DNA from: Agelas oroides
Lineage: Eukaryota > Porifera > Demospongiae > Agelasida > Agelasidae
Reading direction: 5' to 3'
Assembly (NCBI GenBank): GCA_949130485.1
Contig: OX422201.1
Coordinates: 4,252,516 to 4,316,515, forward strand
DNA length: 64,000 nucleotides
Positions 2,284 through 50,548 of the stretch are shown in pieces. Position 1 is the stretch's first letter; every line of letters starts with the position of its first letter. A program made the translations under genes and the position numbers. The notes beneath the pieces were generated by a model. It saw only the letters and a list, made by a program, of their open reading frames with translations, had not been told where the DNA came from and did not search any database.

Positions 2284-2851
2284 AAAATGACGGTGAGTAC
2301 TCAAACCGTTTTTGAGATATCATTATTGAACATAGTGATCTTAACAAGAAAGAATACGAAAATGGCACTTTCGCTACCACACACTTTTGCGTTTAGCTGT
2401 CTTCCGCGAGGCTTTTGGGCAACTTTATGAGTCTTACTGATCACAAAGGCACTCAAGGAGGAAGCCTGGGCACGTAAATAAGCTTTTAGCATATTTGTGG
2501 TGAAGTTATATGGCTTTTGCTTAAGTATTGCATATATTGCACGTCCACGATATCCCTACATAGAGAGTCTACTGACTCTCTGATATCAAAGCGCTAGACA
2601 ATGAACATGTGCGATAGGACAGGTTTAGTGTATGCCTAATTCTTGCTATTACATACATTAAGAGCGTGCACCTATTAACTGGTCTCTACAATAAAAGTGC
2701 ATTTATAACCAGTTCCTATGGCTAGGCTATAGTTCTCTCAAGTGTACGTTAAAAAAGCGTAGTTAGCTAACAATGCTGCTCTATCTTATGTTTTTTGCTC
2801 CTATAAAGTAGATTGCATAGTCAAAGACATATACTTACTTCTCACATGCAG
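2284..2851 (+). promoter_or_regulatory. Possible leader exon end, leader intron and acceptor of the sacsin-like gene
   Basis: At 2287-2292 the sequence ATGACG is followed directly by a strong donor, GTGAGT. At 2841-2851 there is a good acceptor, CTCACATGCAG, nine bases before the start codon at 2860. Joining the two gives ATG ACG ATC TGC CAA TGA, a five-codon upstream frame whose TGA overlaps the main ATG as ATGA. This is inference: the donor may belong to nothing, and an upstream coding exon outside the window is also possible. Confidence 0.3.
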
Positions 2852-2859
2852 ATCTGCCA

Positions 2860-5800
2860 ATGATTGTGAGTAGAAAGTGGGTGGGCATTGTTGACCCACA
2901 CCGCCAGTGTGTTTGTGTAAAGGATGAGACTCAACCAGCAGGAGAGAAGAAAAGGCTTGGAGAATTCTTCAAGCACGAAGGCCACAAGGCTTGTTTTGAT
3001 GGAATTTTTGGCATGTCTTCTGAACAGACTGACTACAATGCCACACTGTTTCGTTTTCCACTGCGCCAGGATGGCATGCGCCAGGATGGCACTGTCTCAA
3101 AAATATCTAGCACCACCTACAATCCAGAAAAAGTCATTGAAAATCTCTTTAGCTCACTAAAGGAGGAGGGCCCTATTATCCTGCTATTTCTAAAAAATGT
3201 TACTAGCATTTCTGTTTACAAATGGGATGGCAAAGCTACCTTACTGTTTGGAGTAGAGGTTGATGCTGAGAGTAAGCAAGCTTTACAGACAGAGAGGAAG
3301 CAAAGCAAAACATTAGCAGAAAACTATAGTCTCTCCAGTTCACACGCTGAAGTGCAGTTGTTCACTGCCACATTTTTGCAAACCCTGGCAGAAAGAGAAG
3401 CCAAAAAGATCCACTGGCTAGTGTTGAGTGTGATTGGCAGTAGCAACATGGCACTGAAGAAGCTTGGTAAGGAGCTGAAAGTGTTGCCTTGGGTTGCGAT
3501 AGCAGCAAGCCTTCCAGAGCATATACATTTACCCCAGGATTGTAGCTTTTCAGCTAGTGCAATCACTGAACCAAACATTCTCCTGCAGGAACTTAGTCCA
3601 TTTCTGCGCCAGCTGCATCATTCTCAGCTTACTCTTCCTCTGTCCCATGAGGATGCAGGGTCTGTCAGTGGACAAGCTTTCTGTTTTCTTCCCCTGCCAG
3701 GCTGCACTGCTTTGCCAGTTAATGTTCATGGCTATTTTTCAGTGGCCGACAATCGAAGGAGTATCAAGTGGCCAGCACATGATGATAAAGGTAAGGAAGC
3801 TCGGTGGAACTATGAGCTCCTTCACAACCTTGTTGCCCCAGCATACAGTATCCTTCTTGCCTGCCGTAGTTCACTGCTGCAGTATCAGGGAACTCCGCCA
3901 GTGCAGAACACAAGGCACATCACAGATCCCTATGCTGCCTGGCCTGTGTATAGAGAAGTTAAAAACCAATCCATTTGGTCTGATCTTGTTGAACCTACTT
4001 TAAAACTTGCCTCTGAGTTTCCCCTTGTTTGGACCCAAGCAGATAGAGGTAAGTGGGTGAAACTATCTGATGCATACTTCCTTCCAGGATCATTCTCATC
4101 TGCTCCACAACTTCTTCCTCCTGCACTTGCAATTGAGGCCCTCATTTATGCTGGCATACCTGTCGTGAGTTTCCCAAGTGCTCTCTGTGAGACTCTTCAA
4201 TCACATGAGACATTGCTAAAGATTGTTGTGGATCATGAAGTAACACCTCCTTTGGTGAGGAAGGCACTCAGGAAACACAAAGAGTTTTTACAATCAAAGT
4301 CCACTATGAAAGATCAGAATTCCATGTATGCCTTACTTGACTATATTCTGTCTGACAGTGATCTCAGTGAGAAAGATTTAGTAGGAATTCCTCTCCTTCC
4401 CTTGAAGTCAGACAAGCTTTCCTTCTGTCAGTTTGAAGACCCATTGCAAGCAAACTCAAAATATATCTTCACAAGCAACCTCAAGGAAGTGCTTCAGTTA
4501 CTCCCGGGAGTTGACAGCATGATAGTGAGTACAGAAATCCCCCCAGGCCTTGAAAAAAAGCTAGTCATGCTAGCAGAACATGGACAGCTGCAACTTAAAC
4601 TAGCAACACCTGAAAATATTTGTTCCACAATATTGAAACAGTCAATCTTCTCCTGGTGCAAACAACGGAAGTGCCCTTCAGTGTGGGGGTGGACACCTGG
4701 ATGCTCCAACCATCCTCCACTGGAATGGATTAGAGGTGTCTGGAATTGGCTGACAAGCAAGTCAGTCCCACTTCCTCTTCTTGAGGGTCTGCCCCTAATC
4801 CCACAATCCCTGCCTCAGGATTCTGTGCACACAAAAGTAACAATATCTCTGATTGAAATCACAAAGACCATAAGCCTCACTATCATCCCTTTTCATCAAC
4901 CAGCCGTGTTGGTGGGCATCCTTGAGCAGCTGGGGTTTACAATTGTTGAAAGGTCCGTTTGTTTTGCACACCCTGGGATGAATCGCTACATCCCAACCCT
5001 CAATCCTGCATTAGTAGCCCAACAGATTTACTCACACAAGAAAGCTAGCACAGTTCACAGCTTCAGTAATGAACAGAAGGATGCCTTAAGACAATATTTG
5101 GCTTCTGGTTCCATCCCCTCACAGTATCGTCAATGTTTGAGCTCACTGCCAATTTTCAAAGCAGGCATTGGAAAATCTGAGGTTAAATATGTTCCTCTGG
5201 ATCCTCAAAGACATATTCTTCTCCCTGCTAAACTAACACTGCCTACCAATCCTTGTTACCCTGACTATATCCTCAGTAGAGAAGACTATCCTTCCATTCA
5301 ACTGATCAAGACTCTTGGACAGATTCCTGAACTGTCTGTTGAAAGATTCTGTGTGGAACATCTGATTCCATATGCCTGTTTCTTGCAACAAAGGTGTTTG
5401 GATGGAGATGACATTGCCAAGTGGTTGTTGTCACAGCAGCCTTATCTTCCCAGACCTGTCATATCCTGTCTTAAGGAAAGCAAGTTTATTCGTACATTAT
5501 CATATCTAAAGTCACCCAGTGAGCTTTATGATCCACACAATGAAACATTTCAAGAGCTCTTTGACTCCAAAACTGAACCTGTTTTTCCAGCTGAACAGTA
5601 TGACCCATATGTGGGGAACCTAAGAAAGTTAGGATTGATAACTTGGAACTCAGTTGTTCACAATGTAGACCAATTATGTTCATTAATTCAATCTCGTGTG
5701 CGAACGGTGGCTACATTGTTCAAGAATGATGTTCAGGCTGCACTGCAGAGAAGCAAGACAATTTTGAAAATCCTAATGCAGTATTTTCCAGATAGACTAT

Positions 5801-8800
5801 GGAATGCAGTACACCATGTGCCATTTCTTTTCGCACAAAGCACTCCACCACCATTCTACCCATCTCACTTACCATGGTATGGGCAGTCATTGCACTGCCT
5901 TGAAACTGCTGATAAATTGTGTCTCCCAGTTCACCAGAATGAACTCTTGGTTGGAAGTGTCAAACCATTTCTCTCATGTGAGTATGAAGCTATACGTGGA
6001 TATATAGCTACCAGATTCTGCCAAATACATGCTGGAGATGTCATTCGGCACCTATCCAATCTGGTTACAGCAGTGAAGGCTGAGAAGGTGGTTGAATACA
6101 GCTCAATCAGCCAAGTGGTTAGCATCATCTACAGGTTCCTTTCAACTGTGCCATTTCCTGAGCAGTCCCTGCCCAGCTGTTGGATATGGTGGGAGAGTGT
6201 AAAAGAGTTTCTTCCTGTTACCAGCGTTGTCCTGAAGCTACCACAGGGTATAGATTTAGAGCCATATATCTTTTCCATCTCCAAGAACTTACATTTGAGT
6301 CAATTCAAATCCCTGTTCAAACAGTGCAACATCAAGAAAAGCATTGAAACTGAAGATGTTGTTCAAATTCTGCATAAAATCCAAGCCACATGTAAGAGTA
6401 CTGCCAGGTCTCTCACAGGATCTGAACCTGAACTTAAGATGGTACTAGACATTTTAAATTGGTTAAAAGAGACATCTGAGTCACCTGGAAACATCCTTAT
6501 ACCTACATCAGATGGCTTCCTTTTGCCTTCTATACAGTGTACATTTGATGACAGGGACTGGATCAAACAGAAGAAGAACCTTCTGCAGATATCACACTTC
6601 ACATTTGTGCATGAAAAGGTGGATGCACCACTAGCAAGGTATTTTCAAGTGAAACCACTGAGTGAGAAGATAGCTCCATCTGAAAAATTGTGCATAAAGT
6701 ACACTTTAGCTGGTCAACATGAAAGAGTTACTCGGAGAATTCGGCACATTGTTCAAGATTATGAAACCAACATTGATATTTTCAAGGAACTAATTCAAAA
6801 TGCTGATGATGCAGGAGCGACAGAAGTGAAGTTTCTTATAGACTGGAGGAAACACCCTTCTTCATCTCTCTTTTCAGGAGACCTACAGCCCTGGCAAGGT
6901 CCAGCTTTGATTGCATACAATAATGCTACATTCTCAGACCCGGATTTTCAACACATTTGTCAGCTAGCTGGTGAAACCAAACGAAGTAACCCTCTTAAAA
7001 CTGGACGATTTGGTGTTGGGTTCTGTGCAGTATACCAGCTTACTGATCTTCCAAGCTTCATCAGCAGACGATACTTCACCATGTTTGACCCACATACCAT
7101 CTACCTTGGTGACAGAGTATCTCCAAGAGAGCCTGGAATGAGAATTGATCTTGTTGAGAGCCAAAGAGATCTAAAAGTTTATGAGGACCAGTTTATGCCA
7201 TACCAGAACATCTTTGGTTGCAACATATTTGATTTGCCTGAAGGAGGTTACAATGGTACCCTCTTCCGTTTTCCATTTCGTGATATAGTGACTGCAGGCA
7301 ATAGTGAAATATGCAGAAAAATTTATACCAAAAGAGAATTGGAGAGACTTGAAAAAGCCTTGCAGAATAGAGCTACAGAACTCCTTCTCTTTCTAAAGCA
7401 TGTAGAAAGAGTATCTTTGTTTTACCTTGATGAACATGCTACAAATCATGCTGAGATGAAAGAGGTGCTTTCAATTAAAAAGTCTGCCTGTCAAAATGTG
7501 TGCACTGCACATTTACAATCTCACAAGAGTAATGCACGAACTTCTCTCATACAGGACTACCTACACAATCCTAGTTACCAAGGAACTAAGAAGTCTTCCC
7601 TCAAAATTGAAGTCAGCAGTAAGACCAGTGGATGTTCACAATCTCAGTGGCTTCTTTGCTCCACTCTTCAATCATCTTCCTCAACACTTGACATTCTAAA
7701 ATTAGAGGGAAAGCAAACTGGCCTTGTTCCTCTCGCAGAAGTTGCTGTAAACATTGACATGGTCTCTGGTGGGATAATCCCTAAAGGTGTAGAAGGTCTG
7801 ACTTTTTGTTTTCTTCCCTTGCCAGTAAAGAGTGGGCTTCAGTTTCATATTAATGGCTTCTTTGATGTTGGCAAGGACCGTCGTAGTCTTTCTGCAGCAG
7901 ATGATGAGACCTTTGGTTCACGTTGGAACAAGGCCTTGGGGCAGAGTGCACTCACTGAAGCATTCAATCAGCTGCTTGCTACCCTTGCTTCAAGAACCAA
8001 CTTAAAAGAAATTAAAGACACAAATCTCAAAAAGGACATTCTGAATTCCTATTATTCTCTGTGGAATCTTAAGAAGTCAACGGGTATTGTACCTCAAGCC
8101 TTGGTATCCTCCTTTGGGAAGCAGCTCATGGCTACAGAACTGGAAATACTGTGGTCTGAAGTGAATGGTGGCTGTTGGATTTGTCCCAAAGAAGCCATCA
8201 TTTTCTCTGAATACTTGTTAAAGAGTGAAGTCTGCAAGGATGCAATCGAAGTGATGATTCAGGAGAGATATAAAATAGTGGAACCTCCGAGTCAATCTTA
8301 TCATGTTATGATGATGATCAAGAAAGGTTTGCAAGAGAAGAAAGCAGTCTACACCTACCACAGATTCTGTGAAGAGGTTCTCTTTCCTAATGTTATTACT
8401 GTTGATCCATCATTGCGTGACAAACATTTACTATATCTCCTTGAGAAAGTTGGTCAGGAGCATCATGAGTACAAATGGGCAAACAAACTTTTACAGAAGA
8501 ACCACTGTATTCCTTGTCAGGAGAGTAGTGAACTTTTGCATCCAGATCAATTGATTGACTGTACACAGCCACATCTCAAATGTCTGTACTCTCCATCTGA
8601 AGGAAGGTTCCCAAGTGACTGTCTGCTGAAATCAAGCAGAGCAATGTACGGTCTTGCATTGTTAGGGATGGCTAGATACAAGCTCAAACTAACTGACCTT
8701 CATGAACGTGCCACCTCAGTTTGTGAGCTTATGCCCCATGAGGCAACTGAGCGTTCTCACCACATCCTTGAGTACCTTCAGAAGACATACTCCTCCTATA

Positions 8801-11800
8801 CTTTCACCACAGTCACATTAACTGACGAACTAAAACAAGTCAGAGAAACCCTACGGGATGTTGCATTCCTCTTGCCCTTAAAGAAACCTGAAGGCATTGA
8901 TATTCCCTGGTATACTAAACACGGGTATATTACTCCATCAGAATCACTCCATCCCAAGTATAAAAACCTCACTTTTACACAGAAGCCCGTGGTTGAGCTT
9001 CCACCTACCCTAACTCATGGCTATCAAGTGCTAGACTGCCTTGGAGTAGGTGAGAGTGCTCCTAACTTAGAGCTTGTGATACAGCACTTACATTGTTTAG
9101 TTTCTAGCCTCACAGAAGTGGAAATTAGTGATGCAACAAGAAGCCATCTTAACAATGAGAAGGTGATGTATGACGTTTACAAATACCTAGAACATAAACT
9201 GAAATGGGACTCTGATGGTGTAGCTGCTAATCTAATAAAGCATAGGTTACAAGGACTGAGTTTCATATGGCAGGATGGCCACTTTTTGTCAGTTAACCAA
9301 GTTGTTAAAGTGTGGCATCACCAGTGCTACCCCTACATGTGTGAACTTTCCTCAACCAACAGAACATTTGATAGACTATTCAGCCTTCTTGGAGTTCGAG
9401 AAAAGGCCACAGTTGAGGTACTTGCTCAAATATTGAAGCAGATCAAGGATGATCATGGCCCAGATTCTCCTGTATCTGATGATATTATTCCCTTCATTGA
9501 AAAGATTCTACAAGAAGTAGTGTCACAACTTAAGCTTCACAAAGAATGCAGTGAAGACTTCTACCTTCCTGATGAAAACAAAGTAATGCGTCCTGCTTCA
9601 CAGTTAGCTTCACAAAAAATTGGATCTGATTTAGCTGGGTGGCTTGCTGAGTCAGAAGCATACAAGGCTCACTTTGATACAGGGTCAGGCCACTTTGTTC
9701 ATCCCAGCATTCCAATCAAACGTGCCGAGGCTCTTGGTGCTCGTCCATTACTTGATGCTATTCTTAAGGACATCGAAGACGAGAGTTTCTTGGATGGCAG
9801 TGACTATGGTCAATATGAGGAACTGTGTGACAGATTGAACTCCATCTTGAAGAAGTACCCTGCAGATGAATCAATGTTCCAAGAGTTTATCCAAAATGCA
9901 GATGATGCCCAAGCATCAGAGATTGTGTTTGTTTTGGATCATCGCACAGACTTTCAAGATAAGAAGCTATTTGGTCATGGTAAAAACTGGGCTAAACTTC
10001 AGCACACTCCTGCTCTCTGCATTTTTAACAATCGGAAATTTTCTGAGGCAGACATACAGGGACTTGCAAAACTTGGAAGAGGTGGAAAGGACCAGTCTGG
10101 TGATAAGATTGGAAAATTTGGAATCGGCTTTAATGTTGCTTATCATATAACTGACTGTCCAACATTTCTCTCATATGGAGAGGGTGGATTGCCAGAAAAC
10201 TTCTGTGTGTTGGATCCAACATGTGAGTTTGCACCAAAAGCATCAAACAAGCGTAGCCCTGGAAGAAGGTGGAAGGTGACAAGCAAGCATATTGAAGAGT
10301 TCGCTGACCAGTTTGAGCCATTCCTTGCAAATGATCTGCCAAAGCTCTCCAAATGTGCTCCAAATTGCTTGAGAAACTTTTCAGAAAATGGCTTTGTTGT
10401 CTTTCGATTGCCTTTGACTAGAAAACTTGAAATCTTTTACAAGCACCCCGATGCATGTACACAAATCTTTCCAAGACACTCATATACAGGTGATCAACAT
10501 AGAAACAAACTTAAGGGCACGACATTTTCTGTCGATAACCTCTCTAAACTGCTTAAAAGTCTCAGTTCAAAAGCAAAAGATATTCTTGTGTATTTGAACC
10601 ACTTACAGCAAATCTCTGTGTTTGAGATCAACAAAGATGGCAAGTGTACACACAATTCCACAACCACAGCAAACATTTCTGCTCTACATCTACAAGCATA
10701 CAAACAATTTGCTAGTTATACCAGTGATTGCCTACAACAGATTAGAGAGGGGAAGTGCCCAGCTACTAAATCCACATGCCATGAAGTTAACATTCTCCAT
10801 GTGGAAAGACAGGATGGAGAAAATGGTGAATTTTCACCAGTGGACACCACATGGTTAGTCCAGCGTGCTGTTGGTAGCAACCAACTGGACTTAGGCCTCC
10901 TCCAGAGTGCACTACAGCATGGCTTGAAGCCTGTTGGTGGTGTGGCAGCACAGTTGAGTCTCGAACATCGTCAGTACCACATCTTCTGTTTCCTTCCACT
11001 TCCTCTGGACAGCCATTTACCTGTTCATGTCAATGGTCACTTTCTTGTTGATGATTCTAGAAAGCATTTTGAGGAGATTAAGCATGAAGGACTCAGTGAA
11101 TGGAACAAGGAGATTGCAACCAAAGTGATTGCACATGCCTACGTTGATCTTGTTTTGCAAGCAATGGACATGGTGCCATTAACTGGTAGTAGCAAGTGGT
11201 TTTACAACCTCTTCCCTAAGTTAGAAATACCAGGAGAGCTTGGAGATCTAAAACTGCCTGAAGCCTTCTATGCACAACTTCTCTTGAAGAACCCACCTGT
11301 TTTGATGCCTCAACAATCACCTTTAGTACATGGCACTGCAAATCCTCAAGTTGAGTTGCAATGGTTTCAACTTAAAAGTGGCTATTTTTGTACTGAAGTT
11401 GCTTGTAAAAGGACTGAGAAAATTGCTGTTGTTAGCACTAAGCTCAGAGATGTTCTCGTAGCACTTGGTATGCCTCTTACAAGTGCACCCCTTCTCATCC
11501 ATTGGTCGTGTTCCAAAATTGATGAAAAGTATGGAGAACTGGCCCGGATTGACCCCCAGAAGGTTATCAAACATTTGCAGCAAGCAACATTTTGTGATTC
11601 AACTGAGGTCTTACTCAGACAGAACATTGAACATCTCCTTGCATACTGCAGCAAAGGCTACTCTGATAAAGAGTTTCCTTCTGTGCTACAGACTGTCCCA
11701 TTGTTACTTGCATCAGATGGTTCTCTCCAAAGATCATCACAGATGTACGAGTCAAGGTTCACTGCTCTGTTACCAGGCCTTGCTGAGAGATTCATTGATC

Positions 11801-14800
11801 CCAATCTGGAAAGATCAGAGGTGGGAAAGCACCTCTTTCAGTGTAAAGTAATTGTTCCTCTCCCTATAGAAGTTGTAGCTCAGCATATTGAACTGCCTGA
11901 CACCATGTCTCCTATTCCAATGTCTTCTGAGTCGAATACCATGGAGATTGTTAGGAACCTATGGGAATATCTTTCTGAGTACTCCTGGACCAATGATAGC
12001 ATACTGCACTACTTTCACTGTAAAGCAATAATTCCTACCATGGATGAAAGACTCTTTCCAATTTCTCTGTGCAAAGCTGTTATCAACACAGTTGTTGGTG
12101 ACAGTGATGTGCAAAATGTCCTGAGGAAACTTGGTTGCCCACTGTTAGATTGTGATCAGCAGAAAGGGATGAAAGTTTTTCAAAGTGTAACTACCTCCTG
12201 TTCATCTCCAGAAGATGTCATTGAGTGCCTCTCCCTGCAACTCACCTTGAACTATGAAGCAGAACTGAATGCTGAGGAAGTACATGCCTTCATTGAGTGC
12301 ATAAGAAAATCAAAGTTTACCATGAAACCTGAAGTAACCAGGATCTTTTCCAGATTAAGACTGTTTCAGACAACTGATGGATCATTTGTTTCCCTGGATT
12401 CTGCACATTCTGGAATCTTCATCATCCCTCCTAAAATGCCCATGAATGGCATTGATAAAATTCAGAAGCACACCAATGCAGTCATTCTCAAACATCCTGA
12501 TAAGTATACCCAGGCATTCTACCGTGCAATAGTACCTAGGTACAGTGAGGCTGTAATTAGTCTTTCAGAGTTTTATGTGAGACTTATAATTCCAAACATT
12601 GAACATCTTGGTGATGCAGCTATTATTGTACACCTGCAATTTATTAAGCACAACCAAGAGCATCCTGATATGCAGTGTGTGCTAGACGCACTAAGAAAGG
12701 CGCGGTTCATTCACCTGAATGGGAGTTACAGACCACCATCTGAACTGTATGATCCAGAAGTGGATTTTTTCAAAACATTTTATTGCACAGAACTACCTCC
12801 AGCTCCATGGAACTCTCAAAAGTGGTTACCTTTTCTCAGAGATGTGGGACTAAAGAAAAAGATTACTAAATCTAAGTGGCTGTTACAGGCTAACCGAGTA
12901 GCCAGTTCACGTCATTCTTCTATAGTTCTCATGAAGCAGTCCCAAGTACTACTTGCAGCATTAATTAGTAAGATCAAAGCTATTAGTGAGGAGGAACAAG
13001 CTCCTGAGAAGGTACATGCGGTCACTGCCTTTCTTCACAATGTAGCAGACATTCATTTTATCTGTCCTTCTATGCCGCTTCACATAAATGAGTTATTGGC
13101 AGGCATTAGTCCACCCTTACGGACACAGCAACTCAAACAGAACTCATTGATCTGTTTCAGAGATTCTATCTTCCTGGCAGATGCTGATCTTGCTTGGCTG
13201 CATAAGTCTGTCCTTCCTAGAGACTGTGATGAGCTCCGCTCTTCTAAGATGAGAAAGGATGGATTACAAATAGAGTTTCCTTTGAGGACAGAAACTGTTG
13301 TCCAGAATCTCTCTTTATTGTCTGAAGTGGTTAGTAGATCCTGTGCACAACAGCCAAAATCTACCAATCAAATTGAGCAAATGGTGAAACTATTTACTGC
13401 TCATTATGCATTCCTAAACATGAAAAAGAAGTTAACTGATACAGACTTAGAACCACTGATGGATAAGGCGATCCTTCTTCTGAACACAGAAGACAGTCCT
13501 GTCTCCTCTCCCATCACTTTGGTTAAACGAACACAACTTGCAAAACATATTCCAGGTGAGTGCAGTCTGGAGCCTTTCTGTTACCGAATGCCACCACACT
13601 TGCTGAAGTATGATCATTTCATGAAAGTTCTTTCCATTTGTGATGAGTTGAAAGCTTTCCAATATGCTAAGATTCTAAATAGCATCAATGATGGGATAGT
13701 AGAAAGTGGAATGGAACTCAAAAGCAATGATCAGTACATGAAAGTTACTGAAGGAGCTTACAATCAACTGATAAGATGCTTGCGCCGTGGAGATGGCACT
13801 CTTACTGGGAGAATCAATGTTTCTCTTTTAACAGATCAGCATGAACTCCAAGATTCTAGTAAGCTGTATTATGATGACGTGCCTTGGTATGCTAAAAGGA
13901 TTCCTGCCCAAAGCTGTGCAAATTTTGAATTCATAAAGCAACCACCCGCCGATGATAGAGGGCGAACAATTCCTCCAGTCTCCCTTGGTGTCAGGCTACT
14001 CAGCACCGTCATCTCAGAGAAACTTCATGAAGATGTTAAGAGTCCTGACTTTAACTGTACTGATGAGGAACTGTATACTGTAAAGAAGCGGACAACAAGG
14101 TGTGGTTATGTGCAGAAACTGCTTGATACGTTTACTTCAATTGAACTTTTGAATGGGTTGTGTCGTGTGTACTGGAGTGAAAACAAATCTGTACCAACTC
14201 AAGAGTTTCTGATTGCAGCAAAGATCCTTGCACAAGTAGAAATCAAGTGCATTGCACACGAACCATTGAAAACTGTGCTCTGTCAGAATGGTAAGCCAAT
14301 TCCTGGAACAGAAGGCAAAGCTTTTTGCCACATGGAAATGCAAAGCGGAAAGAATATTTTATATATCTCACCTCACATTGACGATTTCACTGAAGAGTCC
14401 TTCTTAAAACAGCTGGCATTTGCAGTAAGAAAGGTGCTTCATGGAGAGATCAAGAATGATATGCACATTGTGGCAATGTTCAAGTGCGATCCTCATAGTA
14501 TTTCACGGGCTTTAGATGATGAAAGAGTAGAACCATACAACCCCAATGAACTAGAGAAGGTTACCTACCACGACATTGGTGACACTGTCCAACTAGACAC
14601 ACTTACCCACCATGATTTACTAATCATTCTAAACTTTAGTGCAGGTGAATTGGTATTGTTTCACTCAGCTGATGGAACCATGAGGTATTGTGAGATTGTG
14701 GAAGTGAAACAATCTCACAAAGTGTTTGAGCCGTCAGTACAGATCAGAACACTACAAGTCACCAACTCAAGTGATGACACAGAGGATACTGAAGAAGAGG

Positions 14801-17800
14801 TCAAGTTGTGGGTTACTCCCCTTCAGCTTTACAAATGCCTGACACCACATCAGCGAGCAGCACTCTTCTTGAAACAACCAGTGGTAAGTATGTTTGCAAC
14901 TCCCATTATCCTAGCAGATGTGCCATGTAGTGATTTAGACTCACTGTATACATGGCTTGGGGAAATCTACCACTCTCTGGAAATACAAAGCCTCTCAGGT
15001 CTTGACATATCTTTGCTTGCTATCCGCCTGGTTGGACATTTGCACTACCAGCTGGTCATTCAAGATAGAGCACAGCATCTTTTTGGCCCAGCAGTAATGG
15101 AAATTCAAAGGCTAACATGCTGCACAGAACTTCCTTGCTGTACAGTTGATGAACATCATCAACTTGTTAAGACACTAGACAAACTGGCTGGAAGATTTGA
15201 ACGAATGTGTTTGGAAGAAGGAGTGGAAGAAGAGGAAGCAACCAGATCTTTCAGGGTCCAACTTGCAGGAAGATTTGAACAGATGTGCTTAGAGGAAGGA
15301 GTGGAGAGTGAGGAAGCAACCAGATACTCCAGTACATCAGATTCAGATGATGACGCACAACAACTGTCATACCGTTACCCCTATTCACGTCAAAGGCATC
15401 CTCTGAGATCACAGCAAACTCAGTCACGTCAAATTCACCACACTCCACCACCACCAGTAGCCCAACTCACACCTCCACAGTATCCCCAACAGAGGTTTCC
15501 AACAATGTCCAGGAGAAGGGGATGCAGACCTCCACAACAAACCCGTTTTCAACCAGTTCCAGAAACACCCACACAACCACCCAAACCACCAATCTGCATT
15601 GAGAGTTCACGAATGTGGCTAGATCAAGCCAAGGCTGACTACAGAGCAGCAGAATTCTTGTTAGAGTCAATGGGAGATGTGGATTCCATGGAAGTAGAAG
15701 TCCAAAATGAAGCAACTAGCACTGACCAGGTGAGTGAAGCTTCCAGCATTCATCATCCAAAAGAAACTTCACGTCCTGAACCAGATACAACTGACCAACC
15801 AGAACAAGTCCCCACTGTTGAGCAGCAAGATGAATCTTCCAGTATTGGATCACAAGATGAGATGTCCAGCACTGAACAGCAAGATGAACAAGAGGAATCA
15901 GCTGGGGCTCATCACTTTCCTGCCCTCGTTTGCTTCTTGTGTCATGAAACAGTGGAAAAGTGTCTCAAGGGAGTCCACTATGCATTTTGTGGCCTCAGAC
16001 CAAACATGATAGACAGCAGTCATTTAGTTGAACTGCTAGAATCCTTGAAACAGTCTCCACATTCACCCAAAGCATTGATCCCTGCACTTCAGGATTGTGT
16101 ATACCTTATCAATGAGCATGAGAATAAAAGTCGCCTTCCCAACTACCAGATTCCCCCCTGTGCTCCAGCAGCTGTATATAATCACATGGATGCCATTGAA
16201 GCTTTCTTTGCCACAAGAAGGCTGTTGGCTGAATTGCAGAAAGATGAAAAATTGAAAGACTTGTTTGGTTGTATTGGGGAAATTCCAAAGCCAAAATTTG
16301 TTTCTACCCTGAAGTCAATGGCTACAGGTGAAAGTAAGTTAGTACACAGTATAGAAAAGTCAGAGCATTGCAATAGTTACCAGATAAAAAGTCATATACA
16401 GCTACATTCAGTCCAGCAATAGAAAGGCTTCTGGAGTGTGGATTTGTTAACAAGTTCTTTCCTATAAAGGAAAGTTAACCAGAATTAATATGCTGGCTGT
16501 ACAACTAGCACAGTAGTTATTAAAGAAACTAAAATTTATATAAAGAGTGGTCATACTATCTAACTAGTGTTGAGTTACTAGCAAACTCTCACAAGGACTT
16601 GAGTTTCCATGAAGAGGGCCAGAGTATAAGTTATTTGAAAGTTACTTTTAATTGTAAGCTCAAGATTTAGTGATTTTGAATTTGTCGGATTTGGCGAGTA
16701 CTAATTTTTAGCGCTATCGTGTAGCATTATAAGTTGGTGGGCTGAGTTTTGGCAAAGACAATGGATTGCTCGCTATATTTCTGGCTCTTGAAAAGCTACA
16801 CACATGGGGCAGGGATTGGCAGGTAGAGCCCTAAAACATATCCCAGCTCAGCAGTGAGCAGGTATTCTGCTACCTGTCTGAAAAATGCTGAGCATTTGCT
16901 TTGGAAGCCAAATAAAATTGCACTGCTTTTGTGGTATGGAACATAGTCACGTTCACAGGTCTCATTAGCCTCATTCCCAGGCCCAGTTCAGGCCCGTTCG
17001 AAATATCGGAGCCCGTTCAAAAATTTGGAGAAAAGGGCCTGGTATCCACTGTTTGCGCATGCGCTTAATTTCCCGACATTCCGGGAATTCCGGATAATAC
17101 CGTGTTACCTCCGTGTGACGTGACGTCAGGTACGTGTATTTTGCCGTATATTTAATCGTATACTGCTGACAATGGCTATTTGTGTGCAAGGCCTGGATTC
17201 TGCCGTGCTGTATGCCTTCCTGCGACTTCGAGGTGAAGCGACGGCGCTAAAACACAAAAAGAAAGCATCTATGAAGCATTTATGCTGGCTGCTAATGGGT
17301 TTTGGCAAGTTATAATTCGTATTACGAAGTTAAGAAACTTATAGCTTACATTTGTAGTGTGAAGATGGTCCTGGGTCGATAGCGCAGTTCAACGATAAGC
17401 GCTGGGGTCAGAAGGTCTGGGCAAAAGACTAGGAGAGCAGCGCTCACCTCTTTGGCGATATAATATAAAAGCCGATATATGAACGTCGTAGTTCATAACC
17501 ACATGATATTGGCTGTCATTTGACACACCCTTGCAGAATTTCACGTGAGCTTTACGCACTAATTAAGCGCATGCGCGAACAGTGGATACCAGGTCCTTTT
17601 CTCCGATTTTTCGAACGGGCCTGGGAACGAGGCTAAGGTCTCATGCACTACAAGTGACAATGTAAGATCTGGAAATGAGGCTACTAGAGTAATTTCAATT
17701 TTGATTATTTTTAGTGATTACGACCACTTCACTAAAAGCACTAATTTAGTACCTGCAACTATCTCAAAATTAAAACCATGACTGATAATTATAGTGATAT

Positions 17801-18432
17801 CATGTCATTGCTTTACAAATGCAGGATACCCAGAGACTTGGGACCCCATGCCAGATACAGACGAAGTATCACTGATGCGTCTAGATGCTGAATTGGAGTC
17901 AGAAGAGTATGAACGCATAGCAGGACGATTCTTACAGACAATGCCACATAGTGAGATCCTGAGGATTGAGCGAATTCAAAACAAACCACTTTGGACAAAG
18001 TACTTTCAATGTAGCCAACATATGCTGGAGTACAATGATGCCATTCTAGGAGAGCAAGTACTTTTCCATGGTTCTAGGACAACAGACCCTAAGGAAATCT
18101 ACAGTGGAGACTCGAGTTTTGACATGCGTTTTAGTGCTGATGGAATGTGGGGCAAAGGCAATTACTTTGCCGTGAATGCTTCATATTCAAATGGTTATGC
18201 ATACCATTCCAAAACTGGCTTGAAAAAAATGTTAGTGGCATGGGTCTTGACTGGTATTAGCTACCATTGTGCTTCAAAGCATTACACAAAACCCCCACTC
18301 AGAGGTACTCAGGGAAGAGGAGGGATCCAGCGTCGCTATGATAGTGTCAGTGGCATAACTGGTGGAAGCAAAGTGTTCATCACATATGAGAACAACCGTG
18401 CCTACCCAGCTTACCTCATTACATATAGATAG
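2860..18432 (+). CDS. Giant sacsin-like protein: three SIRPT/Hsp90-like repeats, HEPN, C-terminal PARP
   Basis: Two exons, 2860-16327 and 17825-18432, join in phase (donor ACAG|GTGAAAG, acceptor AATGCAG|GATACC) to give about 4,691 aa; unspliced, the frame would read 95 bases into the intron and stop at 16422. Sacsin-type repeats follow one another. Repeat 1 (aa 1-~1280) lacks the first half of its GHKL ATPase fold. Repeat 2 starts near aa 1287 with ELIQNADDAGA and GRFGVGF. Repeat 3 starts near aa 2320 with EFIQNADDAQA and GKFGIGF. Each repeat has an FCFLPLP segment. A sacsin-type HEPN domain spans aa ~4250-4480, split by an acidic low-complexity insert. The last ~200 aa are a PARP14/12-type catalytic domain with LFHGS, GKGNYFAVNASYS and AYPAYLITYR. 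The H-Y pair is kept and the third position is not glutamate, which predicts mono-ADP-ribosylation. Human sacsin (4,579 aa) has UbL and DnaJ domains and no PARP; I see neither UbL nor DnaJ here. Likely a cytosolic chaperone-type or defence effector (inference). Confidence 0.88.
15184..15325 (+). repeat. In-frame 78-bp tandem duplication inside the sacsin-like exon
   Basis: Two adjacent copies encode LAGRFERMCLEEGVEEEEAT and LAGRFEQMCLEEGVESEEAT. The unit is 26 codons, starting at 15184 and 15262. Most differences are synonymous or conservative, so the duplication is fairly young but under constraint. It lies in the linker between the third repeat and the HEPN domain. Confidence 0.85.
16966..17636. 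mobile_element. Non-autonomous hAT-like element in the PARP intron
   Basis: The element starts TAGCCTCATTCCCAGG and ends CCTGGGAACGAGGCTAA. Long terminal inverted repeats continue through GGTATCCACTGTT and GCGCATGCGCTTAATT and their complements; the left arm has a ~30-bp internal duplication. An exact 8-bp direct repeat, GGTCTCAT, flanks it at 16958-16965 and 17637-17644, which fits hAT-type insertion. It is 671 bp with no transposase. It lies inside the 1.5 kb intron separating the HEPN-coding and PARP-coding exons. Confidence 0.85.
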
Positions 18433-23364: not shown

Positions 23365-24282
23365 TTAACAACCATACTTTGGGTCTGTAACATTGAGTTC
23401 TCTTGGGTTGTTGGAGGTTACGGGACATCCTGTGAAGCAGCCAATTGTCCATGGGAAGCCATCAGGAAGGTGGTAGTGGTAGACAAGTTCTCCATCAATC
23501 TCATGAGTGTGGCCTTGACAGGAATCCAAGTCGGTTGGAACAACGCCTCCCAAAGAATAGCGACCATATATTCCATAGCCATCAAAAATCCACCCAAGAA
23601 GCTGAGAATGTTGGCCAGGTATGTCTGCGGGAAGTTCGCATTCCTTACGCTGGCTTGTTGTGTTGATCCCAATGCCAGAATGGACATGGTAGTTATTATG
23701 AGGATCTGCATGGCCTCCACACTGGTCTGTTGTATGCCCCTCCGCCACAACTGCATCCACATAGATTGTAGGGGCGTTAGGGTCTTGATTGGGACACTTG
23801 GAGCTGAATCCACATGGAGAACCGACTCCAAATATCTTGACCCCATTCAAAAGCACCCCTAGAGCTCCCATAATTGGTTTGGGGTTCTCCTTGAGATAAG
23901 TGATGCCATTGTAGACACTGTCCTTTTCCCCAACAGGGATGGGCTCCTTAGCACGCTTAGGTTTGAGTGGGATCTTAAAGATGGTCTGTCTCAAGCAGGC
24001 TTGGGCTGGGTTGGTCCAATCAGGATTATCATATGGAGGGCATGTAGAAGTGTTGATGTATCGATAGGTGTTTTCAGTGGTGATGGTGACTCCATTGTAA
24101 GGAGGTTTTGTGAAGCACTGCTGCATGTTAGGTGGACAGTTCTGAGCCACTGCTCCACAGCAAAAGACAGCCAACAGCATCAGTGACAGAATCTTGAGGA
24201 ATACGTGGACATGCAGTTGCAAGAGAGAAAAAATCTGAATCACCTGAGCATATAGCAGACTGCAGTGCAGCTTGCTGTTCAA
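23365..24282 (-). CDS. Secreted YHYH-domain protein
   Basis: A single frame of up to 305 aa. A hydrophobic stretch near residues 31-45 (SLMLLAVFCCGAVAQ) ending before NCPP looks like a signal peptide; the true start may be an internal Met or lie on an unseen exon. The mature part is cysteine- and histidine-rich. It has GHADPHNNYHVH, then GWIFDGYGIYGRYSLGG, then HTHEIDGELVYHYHLPDGFP and TIGCFTGCP, which is the signature of the YHYH family (Pfam YHYH). The family is known from marine bacteria, algae and invertebrates and has no established biochemical role; the histidine clusters suggest metal binding (inference). The protein ends DPKYGC. Neighbouring transposon sequence does not break the frame. 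Confidence 0.8.
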   Translation of the reverse strand: MNSKLHCSLLYAQVIQIFSLLQLHVHVFLKILSLMLLAVFCCGAVAQNCPPNMQQCFTKPPYNGVTITTENTYRYINTSTCPPYDNPDWTNPAQACLRQTIFKIPLKPKRAKEPIPVGEKDSVYNGITYLKENPKPIMGALGVLLNGVKIFGVGSPCGFSSKCPNQDPNAPTIYVDAVVAEGHTTDQCGGHADPHNNYHVHSGIGINTTSQRKECELPADIPGQHSQLLGWIFDGYGIYGRYSLGGVVPTDLDSCQGHTHEIDGELVYHYHLPDGFPWTIGCFTGCPVTSNNPRELNVTDPKYGC

Positions 24283-24545
24283 CTTATGTCAAGAGTTTGA
24301 GATGGGCTAATAATGTCCTGAAAGTAGCTTTTTGCAAATCCAATAATTATGATGATAGCGCTCATGTGACACATTTGGAAGCCACAAGGTAGATGAAACG
24401 AAAAAAAAAAAGAAAAAAAAAAACTTAGCTACTTTTAAAATGTGGTCTGGGAAGGAGGCTAGGATGCTACTAATTTCTGGTGTCACTCATCTCTAAAATC
24501 TCGCGTCTCAACTAACATTATAAACTTCTAGGAAGAAGGTAAACC

Positions 24546-25120: not shown

Positions 25121-25524
25121 TCCTCCTGCCATAGTCGTGTATTAAAGCTCCCGTGCAGCCGTGCTCATGCACCGATAATATCCTACACTACAGACTATTT
25201 ATGGTGATGTTAGTAGTATGCATTGTGATTAGCCATAATTATACAACCACTAACATGCAAGTACACGTACGTAAAGCTGATATCTCACTTACATGTACTT
25301 CCATCGTTCAGTGTTTCTCGACCAAATAATTTGCAAATGAATTCATAGCACTGAGGTTGTCATGTGGCTTCCCATTTTTAGTATAATTATAGTACTGTCA
25401 TCTGCGGAATGCAGAATGATTATTGTTGACCTAATATCGTTCCCAGATCACAGAATGCATTTCGCGATCTGTGGTCTGGGAACAAGACTGGATCAGGCTA
25501 GGCGGAGACTGTCAATTCTGCAGA
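25121..25524. other. Upstream region of the THEM6-like gene
   Basis: No gene. A palindrome at about 25439-25483 (GTTCCCAGATCACAG with CTGTGGTCTGGGAAC) is a small relative of the dispersed CCTGGGAACGAGGCTA family and lies just upstream of the gene, so it could overlap its promoter or leader. Confidence 0.5.
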
Positions 25525-26175
25525 ATGTGCTCTCTTATTGTGGGCGTGTTAGCACTTCTCTTCGCCTTCACTGACGCCTGGTACTTTGTGCGGTTCTTCT
25601 TCCTGTTTTTGAAGGTCATTCTGAAGAGGACTCTGGGGAGAGGAGAGTGCTCGATGTCCCAGGAGGACCTTCTGAACAAAGAGTACAGGTGCTATGGAGT
25701 GGTTCTGCCATCTGATCTTGACTGGATGCTGCACATGAACAACTCGAGGTACCTGAGAGAGATGGATTTTGGGAGGGTAGGACTCGGCCTGGAGTGGGGA
25801 ATACGAGATGTGGTGAAGAAGCTTGGTGGGAGAGCTGTACTGAATGCCACAGCAGTCAGATACCGGAGGTCACTAACTCTCTTTCAGCGATTTGTAGTCA
25901 AGACAAGAATCCTTTGTTGGGATGAAGGTGCAATCTACTTTGAGCACAAAGTGGTTGCAAGTGATGGTTTTGTATGCACTGTGGTCTTTGCCAAACTTGC
26001 AGTACGGGGTGTCACAGCACCTGTGATCTTCCAAACACTGGTTGGCTGTGGAAGGAGCCCCCCTCCCCCTCCTGAAGTGCAGAGCTGGATGGAAAGTATT
26101 GTGAGGTCAAGTGAAGCAATGAAGAGAGAAGGAAATGTTATGGAACAGAATTACCAGAATGCAAAGATGGAATGA
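25525..26175 (+). CDS. THEM6: THEM6-like protein (thioesterase superfamily member 6)
   Basis: Start chosen at 25525 (MCSLIVGVLALLFAF) because human THEM6 also opens with a short N-terminal hydrophobic anchor; the in-frame Met 54 bases upstream adds unconserved residues. The 216-aa product has the anchor at residues 3-17, DAWYFVRFF, then VLPSDLDWMLHMNNSRYLREMDFGR, close to the family motif [20 protein letters not shown]. Next come RYRRSLTLFQRF, KTRILCWDE, FEHKVVASDGFVC and a C-terminal PPPEVQSWMESI. This is a hot-dog-fold acyl-thioesterase relative anchored in the ER membrane; human THEM6 supports membrane lipid homeostasis. Length matches human (208 aa). The coding region is uninterrupted. 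Confidence 0.9.
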   Translation: MCSLIVGVLALLFAFTDAWYFVRFFFLFLKVILKRTLGRGECSMSQEDLLNKEYRCYGVVLPSDLDWMLHMNNSRYLREMDFGRVGLGLEWGIRDVVKKLGGRAVLNATAVRYRRSLTLFQRFVVKTRILCWDEGAIYFEHKVVASDGFVCTVVFAKLAVRGVTAPVIFQTLVGCGRSPPPPPEVQSWMESIVRSSEAMKREGNVMEQNYQNAKME

Positions 26176-27565: not shown

Positions 27566-30500
27566 CTACCACCCAGGAGCAGCTTGGGCCAATCTCCGCA
27601 TCCGTCTAGAATGGAAAGAGAGAAAACAACATTGTGTGCTTCATAATTGGTTGACTACTGTATCATGAAGATATACACCTCTGTACAAGTTTGCAAATCT
27701 AAGACATTGTATTGAAAACCGACTGGAGTCAGTCAGTCAGCTCATGGACCAATAGTAGAAGTGAGTATAGTTAGAGAAAACACTAGCAGTGCATTCTAGA
27801 GACAGGACCAAAGTGCCACAGCCAGTAAAGCTAATAAATACTCAACACAACCACACTTCATACCCACATGGAAAATGAAACACACACAAGATCAAGGAGT
27901 TTAGCACCACACCATTTGGGTGCCATACAAAGTGATCATGTGCATCCAGGCACTTCTAATCCCTTTCCATTTGATCATGTGCATCCAGGCACCTCCAATC
28001 CCTTTCCATTTGATCATGTGCATCCAGGCACTTCTAATCCCTTTCCATTTGATCATGTGCATCCAGGCACCTCCAATCCCTTTCCATTTGATCATGTGCA
28101 TCCAGGCACTTCCAATCCCTTTCCATTTGATCATGTGCATCCAGGCACTTCCAATCCCGGCACCTCCAATCCCTTTCCATTTGATCATGTGCATCCAGGC
28201 ACCTCCAATCCAATTTGTTGCAACTAATACGTATATATCTATGCACATGACCACACCCATCATACGTAATAGACATACCAGGTTTCCAGCTACATAGACA
28301 ATTACATATTTCCCTTCCCTGAACACACACACACACCTGGTGTTTCTATCCTGGTCTCTCATCTTCTTCTCCATTTCTGCATCAGTGAGCACCTGTACTG
28401 TGGGTCCCCACTGCTCTGCATCTGCAAGTTGCCTCACTGGGAACTTTATTGCAGGTAGTGGGGCTTCACTATGTGAGCAAGGAAAAGAAGATTCCCTCAA
28501 TCAGAAGTATGAGAGTGGTTGAAGTCATGGCAGCAATGACAGATCATCAGAGATAGTGAATCCATGGAGACTAATTGTATTGCATAAGCAGTTGAAGGCA
28601 TTCTAAATAACAATGTACTACAACAGGTATCCGAACACGTTGGTTAACCAAAGCCAGTGGAAAGCAACTTATCTGAACATCAACAGGGGCTTATTTAATT
28701 GTCAAGAAAGGGCCGAAAGTTGATGGTTAAAAGGTTTGGAGGAGGATCATTAATCTCGTTTCCACACCTCACATTATTCAATGTTTGTACCGTGTGTATT
28801 CTTAGACTACTGCTGTATGATGTCTGGGAACAAGGGTAGGGCAACCCCCATGTTGTACTTTGTATATAAATTATACAGGGGGTCTGGGGGCTTGCCTCCA
28901 GGAAAATTAGACCCTCTGAGATCACTTTTTCAAATAACATTGTCTATGACTGGTCACCACATTCACTAATACTGATAAGGCTCTCTCAACTTGTAAGTTC
29001 CAAGAAGTTCCAAGAAAAGAGGGAGGGGCAAATGCCTCCTTTCCCACTCCAAATTAAAGCCCTGCATCAGGTATGCGAACACGTTGGTTAACTGAAAGTG
29101 TTCACTTTAAACAACCAGATGTCAGCATGGCCACTATTTGGTGCTTAGGATTCACTTTACCCATTGTACGGCAACTGGAGACACGGGATATAACTTTACT
29201 GGCAAGGCAGGATTTACAACAAAGGTTTAATAACCAACTGACAAAGTGACCACTGGGTATCATGTGCAGGAAACTGGGTAACAGTTTACGGTTGTGTGGA
29301 TTCTAGCACTTGCTACATAGCAGTGGCTAGAAGTACAACTTCAGATCTGGTAGCCAGGGGATGCATCACACACCGGTGACAACTTGACAGCAACAAATCA
29401 GTGGTAGTGCACAGCTAGCTCACGCATAGTTAACATACATCATATGGGCTGACAAGTGCAATGGACACCCTCTGTCGTCTTTCAGTTATCTGCAGTCATC
29501 AGTCAACCAAATTCCCTCTGGTCTGAACGTGTTCGGATAAGTGACTTCTACTATATTCCTACTTATCACAATACTGATCAAGTATCTGCATAAGATGCAG
29601 AACTACAAAACAACACGAGCAAATTAACACTAGAAGATGTCCTTATGGAGTTAGTTTAGGCTCACATCAGATGGAGCGAGTGACTAATCTGTCTGTTTCT
29701 CAAAGTGATACTACTTCTTGGTGGCCAGTTTGAAAGAAGGAACATGCTGGATGGGCCTGGGAACAAGGTTATACTTCCCACTGTATGTGCTTGTACTACC
29801 AACAGTAGTCCTCAGTACAGTGGAACCCCTCTATAGCAGACACCATTGGGAACCAACATTTTTCCCCATATAGCGAGGTGTCCCTAACTCAGGGGCTGTA
29901 TCACAGTGATCAATCTGGCAGCAATAAATCATCTCTAACTTGCACCAATAGTCGGCAATGCAGTGGAACCCTATTTAATGGACACCCCTCAACAGCGGAC
30001 ACCCACAATATAACGGACAGTTCCGAAAGTGCCGGCTGTCCTTCCATTCACTTCAGTACTTCAGCAACCCCTGAAAAGCGGACACCACACTACTCTGTAT
30101 AACGGACAGCTTTCATGCCTCCAATCGTACGCAGACAGTAATTAATGACCCCGATTTAGTGGACACTCGTCGACCTTTTCAGCATCATCGCTGCTGGAGT
30201 TAACATCTTGACATTAGATCAGCGCTGTTACTTGTCTCTGCTTAGGCTTCCCTGCCAGCATATAGGTCTATTGGAAAGGTGGCCTTTTTACACTGAACTT
30301 CACAATGTCAAATGCAAGACGCACATGGTGGTCGTATCAATCAATCTCATGCCTCTTTATCAGTTGATTTAAGGGACCAAGATCAAGTGCCAGGATTTAT
30401 AGCATGCATCGATCGTGTGATAAAATGTACCAGGCTTCTCGGTTTTTGTATCCTATGTGTAAGTGACAGTTAAAGCTGTGAGGAGCCTTTCCTTCTTTTA

Positions 30501-33499: not shown

Positions 33500-34780
33500 G
33501 ATCAGCTAAGCCTAAGATAGTGTAACTTTTAGTTCTAATAGAAGCCCACCAATAATTTTCAGTCTTACCTACCACCCAGCTTGCGCGCGCCGCATCTTTG
33601 TTTATAAATGGCGGGCTAGTGTGAAGGCAGAGACGGTGACCAGGATTTGTAAGGTGGGCATGGGGAGAGTACACATGAGAGTAGTCCCTGATAGCATAGT
33701 AGGAACCTGAAATGTTATTTCAAATTAACGTAAGTTTTTAGTGTATATGGAAAGCTCTGAGCTTAGCCTAGCCTTAGTAGAAAATAGCATAGATAACACA
33801 AGCCGTTAACGACAGAATGTTAGCATCCGTATGCTATACGGTATTTATACCAGCCCTAACCCAACCCTAACCCCACCCTAACCGTATAAATCACTGTATA
33901 GCTTACGGATGCTAACGTTCTGCTATTAATGGAAATCTAGATAACAGCAACAGTCACGGTGTTCTGAGCTCATGTTCTAGTTTGAGTCGTGAACATTGTA
34001 CAGGTATGCAGTATTGATTAATGTACATAAACAATCAGTGAAACTCATCTCTGTTTGAAAAGCAAGCCGGCTTATACAGTAATAGAGCGGGTTTCCTGCT
34101 CTATTATCTAATGTACAAAGTTACAGAGTTGCGACCTCGGTACGTGCAAATGAGTGAGATGTGCCACAAAATGGTGTGAGAAAACATCGTAGTGACTTTC
34201 ATGCGTGAGGCATGTGAAAGTATGATCGCTCTATGGGACTAATTGGTTTATTACCGCATTGCAGAGATGTTATAATGCTATCTTTAATGTCGTCTTACTT
34301 GGTTTGGTTCTATACTTACTTTCGTTCCTAGCTTCACAGTGTTTTACCGATCACCGATTCAGTGCACCTACGATTTAGCCTTGTCTAGTCTAGGGGCGTG
34401 ACCTGGCATTAGAAATCACTTTGTGTGTGCATGTGAGATTTCGGTGCATGTGAGCATGAGGTAGATACTAAATGCGTGAGTCTCACACAAAATGCGTGAA
34501 AGTTGGCAGCTAATACAGCAACGTCAGCACTCTGTTAATGTGGCGAAAAAAACAGACAAACAATGGATGAGTACAGTGGTGCTGTTATGGTAATGAAATC
34601 CTCAAGTTAGCCATGTTCAGAATACAGAAGCTGGCCTCCTGGTTTTTGCTAAACAGATACTGGATCATTGTGGGGCAAGCAGTATGCTAGTCCCTACCCG
34701 AGTGCACAAGTGGACAAGCAGTCATCTGTTGTTGTTTGTTTGTGCACACTCAATGTAGGTGGCTTTATTGTGTTGGAGTG
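33500..34780. promoter_or_regulatory. Divergent SMARCB1/TCHP intergenic region
   Basis: Holds the promoters of both genes. A GC-rich block directly upstream of SMARCB1 (about 33570-33620, GCTTGCGCGCGCCGC) is the likeliest core promoter for that gene. The telomere-core MITE copy B sits between the two. No other coding sequence recognised. Confidence 0.5.
33798..33937. mobile_element. 140-bp Mutator-like MITE with telomere-type core, copy B
   Basis: Nearly identical in length and sequence to the element at 21793: starts ACAAGCCGTTAACGACAG, core CCCTAACCCAACCCTAACCC, ends ATTAATGGAAATC. Flanked by TAGATAAC(A) at 33790-33797 and 33938-33945. The near identity of A and B implies recent activity. 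Confidence 0.85.
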
Positions 34781-41832
<7,052 letters not shown>

Positions 41833-49900: not shown

Positions 49901-50548
49901 ACTATGCATGAATATAATTGGATTATATACGATGTACCGGGGGTATTGCCCTAACTAGCTACTTTGACAACTACTGGGATATCTCTTCTGTATGGCATGT
50001 TATGGTATAATAGCTGGCAGATACCAATTTTATATGGACTTGTAGCAATACCAGCTAGTACTATGAGTTTCATTGCTCATTCTACAGTATTTCAGTGTAC
50101 TATTATTTTTGTGTTTGAATGATGTTCATCCATCAATAATTATTGCAGCAAGCTTGAGAGAAAAACTACAGATATGAGGGCTGCCCTGAGTAAGTATTCC
50201 ACCTGGCAGTCTCTTCCAGCCAAAGATGCCCTTCACCAGTCACAAGCCCTCCACTTTACCCTCAGAAGTATTGCCACTGGATGTGAGGATGTGGAGACGA
50301 TGCCAAGAGCCACTACCAAGATCTCATTTGAAGCGCCTTGCTCTGATGTTCTTACAACACTGGGTCATCTAGGCAGATTCAAGATTGCTCCAAAAGGTGG
50401 TGATGAACAGCACACAAAAAAGAACAAGTTGCCAAACAAAAACAAGGAACAACTTTCACAAAACAGTGTACATGAAGCTCACAGTCATGTTGTACAAGAC
50501 ATAGAAGGCCAACCTCCAAACAAAAAGAAAAAACTCGTTTTCAATTAG
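43912..50548 (+). CDS. MATH/TRAF (USP7-like) - RING - B-box - coiled-coil protein, likely E3 ubiquitin ligase
   Basis: Eight exons: 43912-44006, 45755-45862, 46467-46540, 47379-47443, 47585-47658, 47733-47863, 49308-49842, 50149-50548; in phase, 493 aa. Aa 4-137 form a MATH domain closest in pattern to the USP7 TRAF domain: LPW, ALGVFLQC, GWSVATHSTMTLVNQRDPKK, MDWGYSSFMKWKDVTDASKG, YLKDDRIILQAYI (USP7 has [20 protein letters not shown]). A C3HC4 RING follows at aa ~155-200 (CPMC, LKCGHTFCLDC, IKCSKC). A B-box lies near aa 240-275 (HFCKTHQHDQAYYC, CIYCAYHGEHSGHEC) and a coiled coil at ~280-350. The tail is basic, with PNKKKKLVF as a possible nuclear signal. TRIM37 has RING, B-box, coiled coil and then MATH; here MATH comes first. 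Exon 7 uses an AAG acceptor. Confidence 0.88.
45112..45335. mobile_element. Inverted-repeat element with an exon-2-like fragment inside
   Basis: Left end TACCCTCATTCCCAGGCCTT, right end AAGGCCTGGGAACAAGAGTA. At about 45178-45212 lies AGTTTGACAGTGATGTGTCA then GAGTGTATCAAGTAG, similar to the start of coding exon 2 of the surrounding gene (AGTTTGGCAGTGGTGTGTCA, GGATGTATCCAGTAG at 45756). A second partial end (GGAAGGCCTGGGAATGAGGC) sits just before that exon at 45651. In intron 1 of the MATH-RING gene. Confidence 0.55.
48075..48254. repeat. Large imperfect palindrome with a duplicated arm
   Basis: GAATGCATGTATCTTAGCTA at 48075 through GGTACAGATGTAGAATCTAC pairs with a right arm ending GCAGCTAAGATAAATGCATTC at 48254. 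The right arm contains ATTCTACATCTGTACCAAG and CCAATCACACAGC twice (48151-48186 and 48193-48234). In intron 6 of the MATH-RING gene; probably a MITE with internal duplication. Confidence 0.75.
48562..48712. mobile_element. 150-bp MITE in MATH-RING intron 6
   Basis: AAACCAGGTGGCATG near 48571 and ATGCCACCTGGTTAT near 48696 are inverted ends; interior AT-rich. The adjoining stretch 48740-49010 is richer in GC than its surroundings; short frames there show no recognisable domain. Confidence 0.5.

Follow-up and report, generated by a model that had tools for sequence, protein, structure and literature searches.

A sacsin-like giant gene of the sponge Agelas oroides predicted to end in HEPN and PARP catalytic domains

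Do a giant sacsin-type reading frame ending in a HEPN domain and a PARP exon lying shortly downstream of it belong to one gene? This question is raised by a 64,000-nt stretch of the Agelas oroides genome (contig OX422201.1, positions 4,252,516 to 4,316,515; hereafter the window, in whose numbering all positions are given). A first-pass annotation had proposed that a sacsin-type region ending in HEPN is spliced in phase to a PARP14/12-like catalytic domain, and our analysis bears this out through the in-frame join, the Pfam matches and relatives that carry both domains in a single frame. From the sequence, we consider it very likely that the locus is one gene, coding for a giant sacsin-like protein that ends in HEPN and then a PARP14/15/12-like ADP-ribosyltransferase, with a phase-1 intron position that recurs in relatives. 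Support for the sacsin-HEPN-PARP fusion is good at the level of the family and, for the window gene, comes from splice prediction. The parts of the predicted gene are as follows.

2852..16333, + strand: giant exon with sacsin-type repeats, linker and HEPN (13,482 nt, ~4,490 codons), delimited by its acceptor, the Pfam matches and a drop in similarity past the 3' edge
16334..16339, + strand: preferred 5' splice site GTAAGT, phase 1 (AAA/GTAAGT after 16333), chosen by its higher donor score and by relatives
16334..17824, + strand: phase-1 intron, defined by donor and acceptor sequence and housing an inverted-repeat element
17825..18432, + strand: PARP catalytic exon including the stop codon (Pfam PF00644)

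The predicted junction and its relatives

The first-pass annotation had placed the donor exactly at 16327 (CAG/GTGAAA). We moved it six bases downstream, where a GTAAGT scores 9.63 against 7.24 for the upstream site under a generic matrix. Past HEPN the sequence is TAEGK in P0005 and P0196, which share a tail and are counted once, and GTEGN in P0206. These relatives place a glycine at the second site, GGT being impossible at the first, and together with the higher score this makes 16333 the preferred donor. Judged on these grounds the donor is more likely 16333/16334, with 16327 staying as an alternative; both join 17825 in frame with a single terminal stop, leaving ~4,697 codons without an earlier one. 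A GT at 17129 scores higher still but lies inside the intron element. Read-through past the donor stops after ~30 residues, at 16422, and mean column identity among relatives falls from 0.56 at residues 4491-4500 to 0.21 at residues 4501-4510, after the LKSM block.

Residues on both sides of the intron were compared across relatives. By eye, a glycine marks the end of similarity in 43 of the 45 sacsin-HEPN open reading frames (ORFs), counting that of the window; it is missing in P0027 and P0047, and the fit is loose in P0035 and P0036. On the other side, 57 of 65 PARP ORFs with at least three upstream residues carry G, A, V, D or E directly before the exon, as a phase-1 AG acceptor dictates, compared with 13.6% of 287 nearby read-through positions taken as a control.

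Joined proteins were recovered directly. A search with a joined HEPN+PARP profile gave 304 matches, 120 of them listed, and among the matches listed P0186 (504 aa), P0189 (507 aa) and P0192 (747 aa), all from JGI data, hold HEPN and PARP in one uninterrupted frame; we read them as spliced sequences. P0189 is identical at 290 of 305 positions (95%) to residues 6979-7283 of P0046, a 7,285-aa ORF with SACS and HEPN, and the two diverge after VDT at the predicted junction, where P0046 runs into GEKPVV and then a stop, whereas P0189 runs through DYPPDWN into PARP. P0192 matches P0046 at 89% from residue 6724.

Linkage and co-divergence point the same way. A PARP ORF, among those listed, occurs on the same contig in 9 of 45 sacsin-HEPN relatives and in 3 of 10 shorter HEPN ORFs, where a shared contig means an exact match in bp of the longest contig, irrespective of distance and strand. 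Two of these 12 linked rows, P0026 and P0219, share one contig and one PARP, and three linked contigs are short (20,594, 9,975 and 2,289 bp). HEPN and PARP distances are correlated across 14 pairs (Mantel r 0.91) and remain so when P0186 and P0189 are removed (r 0.81, 12 pairs), with p 1e-4 in 10,000 permutations in both cases. As a separate observation, six sacsin-HEPN relatives (P0016, P0017, P0021, P0022, P0023 and P0025) are 80-94% identical on contigs of differing size, and may be either recent duplicates or several assemblies.

Several points weigh against a single fused gene. The join in the window gene is a prediction from splice sites, and the JGI single-frame proteins might come from RNA or from DNA copies lacking introns, with the protein fused in either case; their HEPN is ~32% identical to that of the window. 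The glycine count was done by eye and without a control, 8 of the 65 PARP ORFs misfit the acceptor rule, and the control stretch for that rule is intron-like and hence poor in those residues anyway. PF00644 appears in the own record of none of the 45 sacsin-HEPN ORFs, which fits an intron and is no support by itself. Among the rows listed, 36 of 45 sacsin-HEPN relatives have no PARP contig-mate; P0003, the window's own entry, is among these 36 despite the window's PARP exon, which shows that true pairs escape the list. Shared species history may in part lie behind the Mantel correlation. Finally, a Foldseek search returned no HEPN match for the HEPN domain at E 0.001, the best hit being 3o10_C (E 0.088).

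Content of the two exons

The + strand frame 2821-16422 is stop-free over 4,533 codons, a run expected by chance with a probability of ~10^-105 given the stop-codon frequency of the window (0.052). In this frame (P0001), Pfam finds PF25794 SACS in three stretches (E 2e-157) and PF05168 HEPN (E 4e-6). A scan up to E 0.1 lists no other family for this frame, and it found no DnaJ domain, which in human sacsin precedes HEPN. The 5' edge is a phase-1 acceptor, CATGCAG/AT at 2851/2852, with 2852 as the first exon base, and by eye several relatives with longer ORFs become alike at the residues DLP near this start. The exon carries several SACS/SIRPT repeats with an Hsp90-like GHKL ATPase, as in sacsin; two of the GHKL modules are complete, and the third, repeat 1, is cut at the 5' edge.

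2852..3870 (end approximate), + strand: C-terminal part alone of repeat 1, similar to repeats 2 and 3, with N-box and G-box outside the exon
6718..7452, + strand: SACS/GHKL ATPase module 2, with QNADDA at residue 1327 and GRFGVGF at residue 1395; best PF25794 stretch, residues 1300-1544
9808..10530 (end approximate), + strand: SACS/GHKL ATPase module 3, with QNADDA at 2359, GKFGIGF at 2431 and a further motif at residue 2526
15598..16311 (edges approximate), + strand: HEPN domain, its first helix followed by an inserted acidic linker

In sequence comparison, module 2 matches the solved sacsin domains 5v44-5v47 (E 1e-46 to 4e-44), and as a tblastn query it finds module 3 at 9808-10323. The N-terminal half of repeat 1 is missing from the exon, and tblastn found none in 1-2851, so the gene begins upstream of the window and at least one exon should precede it. 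Human sacsin has a ubiquitin-like domain at its N-terminus (PMC3710099; this and the other papers given by PMC number are cited for parts of their text), and the N-terminus of the window gene lies outside the window.

HEPN is recognised by PF05168 on residues 4366-4470 at 27.4 bits (cut-off 22), and the best match of the HEPN model is that of human sacsin, the C-terminal domain thus being of sacsin type. The RNase motif of HEPN, R-x4-6-H (PMC3710099), is incomplete in this copy, as R4438 is kept and Q4443 replaces the histidine; at that position, 9 of the 38 other rows of alignment A1 have H. The first-pass suggestion that HEPN is RNA-directed, taken literally as RNA-cutting, therefore finds no support here, and we set aside an active RNase in this copy.

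The PARP exon matches PF00644 (E 1.7e-18) in frame 17782-18432 (P0002) and has a PARP catalytic fold. Its closest solved relatives are PARP15 (7e-22), PARP14 (9e-22) and PARP12 (8e-19), in agreement with the PARP14/12-like assignment made initially. The three triad positions are as follows.

18067..18069, + strand: catalytic His (LFHG), H96 of P0002; H in 120 of 120 relatives listed
18163..18165, + strand: catalytic Tyr (NYFAV), Y128 of P0002; Y in 120 of 120 relatives listed
18373..18375, + strand: third triad position, Val, V198 of P0002; V in 108 and I in 12 of the 120 relatives listed

We take H and Y to be NAD+-site residues. PARPs that build poly-ADP-ribose have Glu as the third triad residue, and a valine there predicts that the exon encodes a mono-ADP-ribosyltransferase. 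Macro domains, characteristic of PARP14, were not found by Pfam in the window exons (P0001 or P0002). A relative on a 4,033 bp contig, P0170, has a 543-aa ORF with seemingly two tandem PARP catalytic domains (by eye).

The intron contains one further feature, of which blastn found no second copy in the window (E 1e-3); its main arms span 60 nt at 92% complementarity, and the outer arms are shorter.

16965-17636: inverted-repeat element resembling a miniature inverted-repeat transposable element, arms 16965-17070 and 17561-17636

Elsewhere in the window, ORFs matching SNF5/SMARCB1 (INI1) lie at 30498-33505 and a YHYH-domain ORF at 23365-24288, both on the - strand, with a thioesterase-like (4HBT_2) ORF at 25435-26175 and a B-box zinc finger ORF at 49199-49954 on the + strand. 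By eye, 27838-28500 is a minisatellite-like repeat with several frames open on both strands, and a long CA/TG microsatellite at 38315-38923 produces TH and VC runs in ORFs.

Possible function and competing readings

We tentatively read the gene product as a sensor or chaperone that is gated by ATP and has a mono-ADP-ribosyltransferase as its output, probably serving immunity or proteotoxic stress. The first-pass idea that it may be a defence or stress effector of invertebrates, so far undescribed, is plausible on circumstantial grounds, and the sponge sacsin-DEATH fusions, the fusion partners of TRADD-N domains and the oyster response to viral RNA, all cited below, speak in its favour. We tentatively propose the following mechanism. 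Binding of a client, be it a misfolded, an aggregated or a foreign protein, would be the task of the Hsp90-like modules and would depend on ATP. HEPN, lacking the RNase histidine, may serve as a dimerising, nucleotide-binding hinge by analogy with human sacsin, whose HEPN is a GTP-binding dimer with an affinity of ~0.8 micromolar (PMC4569058). Such a pair would bring two mono-ADP-ribosyltransferases together, and PARP would be the output, modifying the bound client, neighbours or the protein itself with single ADP-ribose units, to be used as a stress or anti-invader signal. Client binding, PARP activity and an immune role are all putative and the case for them circumstantial, which counts against the functional part of this proposal; taken jointly, we hold architecture and mechanism to be somewhat more probable than otherwise. 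A wider and still more tentative possibility is an undescribed family of giant animal sensor-effectors that would have multiplied and diversified in sessile marine animals. Hsp90-like sacsin modules would provide ATP-gated recognition in these proteins and a mono-ADP-ribosyltransferase would be their built-in output, which would make them a counterpart of NLR-type receptors that works by ADP-ribosylation.

Among competing readings, a proteostasis protein that folds clients and tags failed ones with ADP-ribose, with no immune role, fares best, though we consider it rather unlikely. Sacsin is indeed described as a chaperone (PMC3710099, PMC4569058). However, sacsin-like proteins with DEATH domains in the sponge Amphimedon are discussed with HEPN in apoptosis and immunity (PMC3710099), oysters are reported to up-regulate sacsin when exposed to viral RNA (cited in PMC8195618), and the closest matches of the PARP are PARP15 and PARP14, duplication of PARP14 having been tied to viruses (PMC13224862).

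Somewhat less likely again, the PARP exon could be an alternative 3' exon, with plain sacsin-HEPN and PARP-ended forms under a regulated switch. The short read-through past the donor would suit this, as would the ORFs of many relatives, which also end shortly past it; yet early stops past the start of an intron are expected by chance, and the read-through tail is not conserved. A decaying copy or an inactive PARP is improbable: the repeat element in the intron and the valine in the triad could be taken that way, but the ~4,697 codons hold no premature stop, H and Y are intact, and V or I is third in all 120 relatives listed.

The least probable reading, which we reject, is that of two genes, one for sacsin-HEPN that ends at 16422 and a separate one for PARP, the phase of the first PARP exon being compatible by coincidence: the frame does continue through the donor to that stop, the first in-frame ATG lies within the PARP exon, and PARP ORFs of this type are abundant in the protein collection (257 matches at E 1e-8), but there is no conservation beyond the donor, a phase-1 acceptor is seen in PARP ORFs, single-frame relatives leave the sacsin ORF at the junction (P0189 from P0046), and HEPN and PARP share contigs and diverge together.

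Comparison with known systems

Under the fused-gene reading, the closest described proteins belong to several systems. Bacterial HEPN genes occur in operons with ADP-ribosyltransferase-like enzymes (PMC3710099), a paper in which the word PARP has no occurrence. PADLOC models of the candidate anti-phage protein TmtA match the sacsin ATPase region 6715-8001 (P0001 residues 1299-1727; E 3.7e-118), although the best match covers the N-terminal part of the profile alone (13-352 of 1,370); P0002 and P0189 matched no PADLOC model at E 0.01. According to PMC4245714, which does not mention sacsin, the six PARP14-like proteins of Amphimedon all have macro domains.

In marine animals, TRADD-N domains occur fused to sacsin, HEPN and PARP, and the nearest description comes from cnidarian TRADD-N proteins with HEPN at the N-terminus and Macro and PARP at the C-terminus (PMC8195603). 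These draw on the same effector pool; the text of that paper, in the parts cited, names no sacsin-PARP protein, and its source tables could hold one. Our searches of freely readable papers turned up no description of a sacsin-PARP protein, and an unreported database entry may well exist.

The fusion would link in one protein sacsin and the PARP14/12 group, which are usually studied apart, and, if the protein works as proposed, it would show sacsin modules to be able to trigger ADP-ribosylation. It would also offer a handle on the role of invertebrate sacsin-like proteins and on what the sacsin HEPN positions beside itself. With PARP14, PARP15 and PARP12 (ARTD), the window gene shares a catalytic domain with H and Y kept; it differs in having no macro, WWE or RRM domain in the window exons, in being joined to sacsin-HEPN and in its third residue, V. 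With human and animal sacsin (SACS), which is mutated in a human ataxia, it shares repeated SACS/GHKL ATPase modules and a C-terminal HEPN, and it differs in that no DnaJ was found and a PARP exon follows HEPN.
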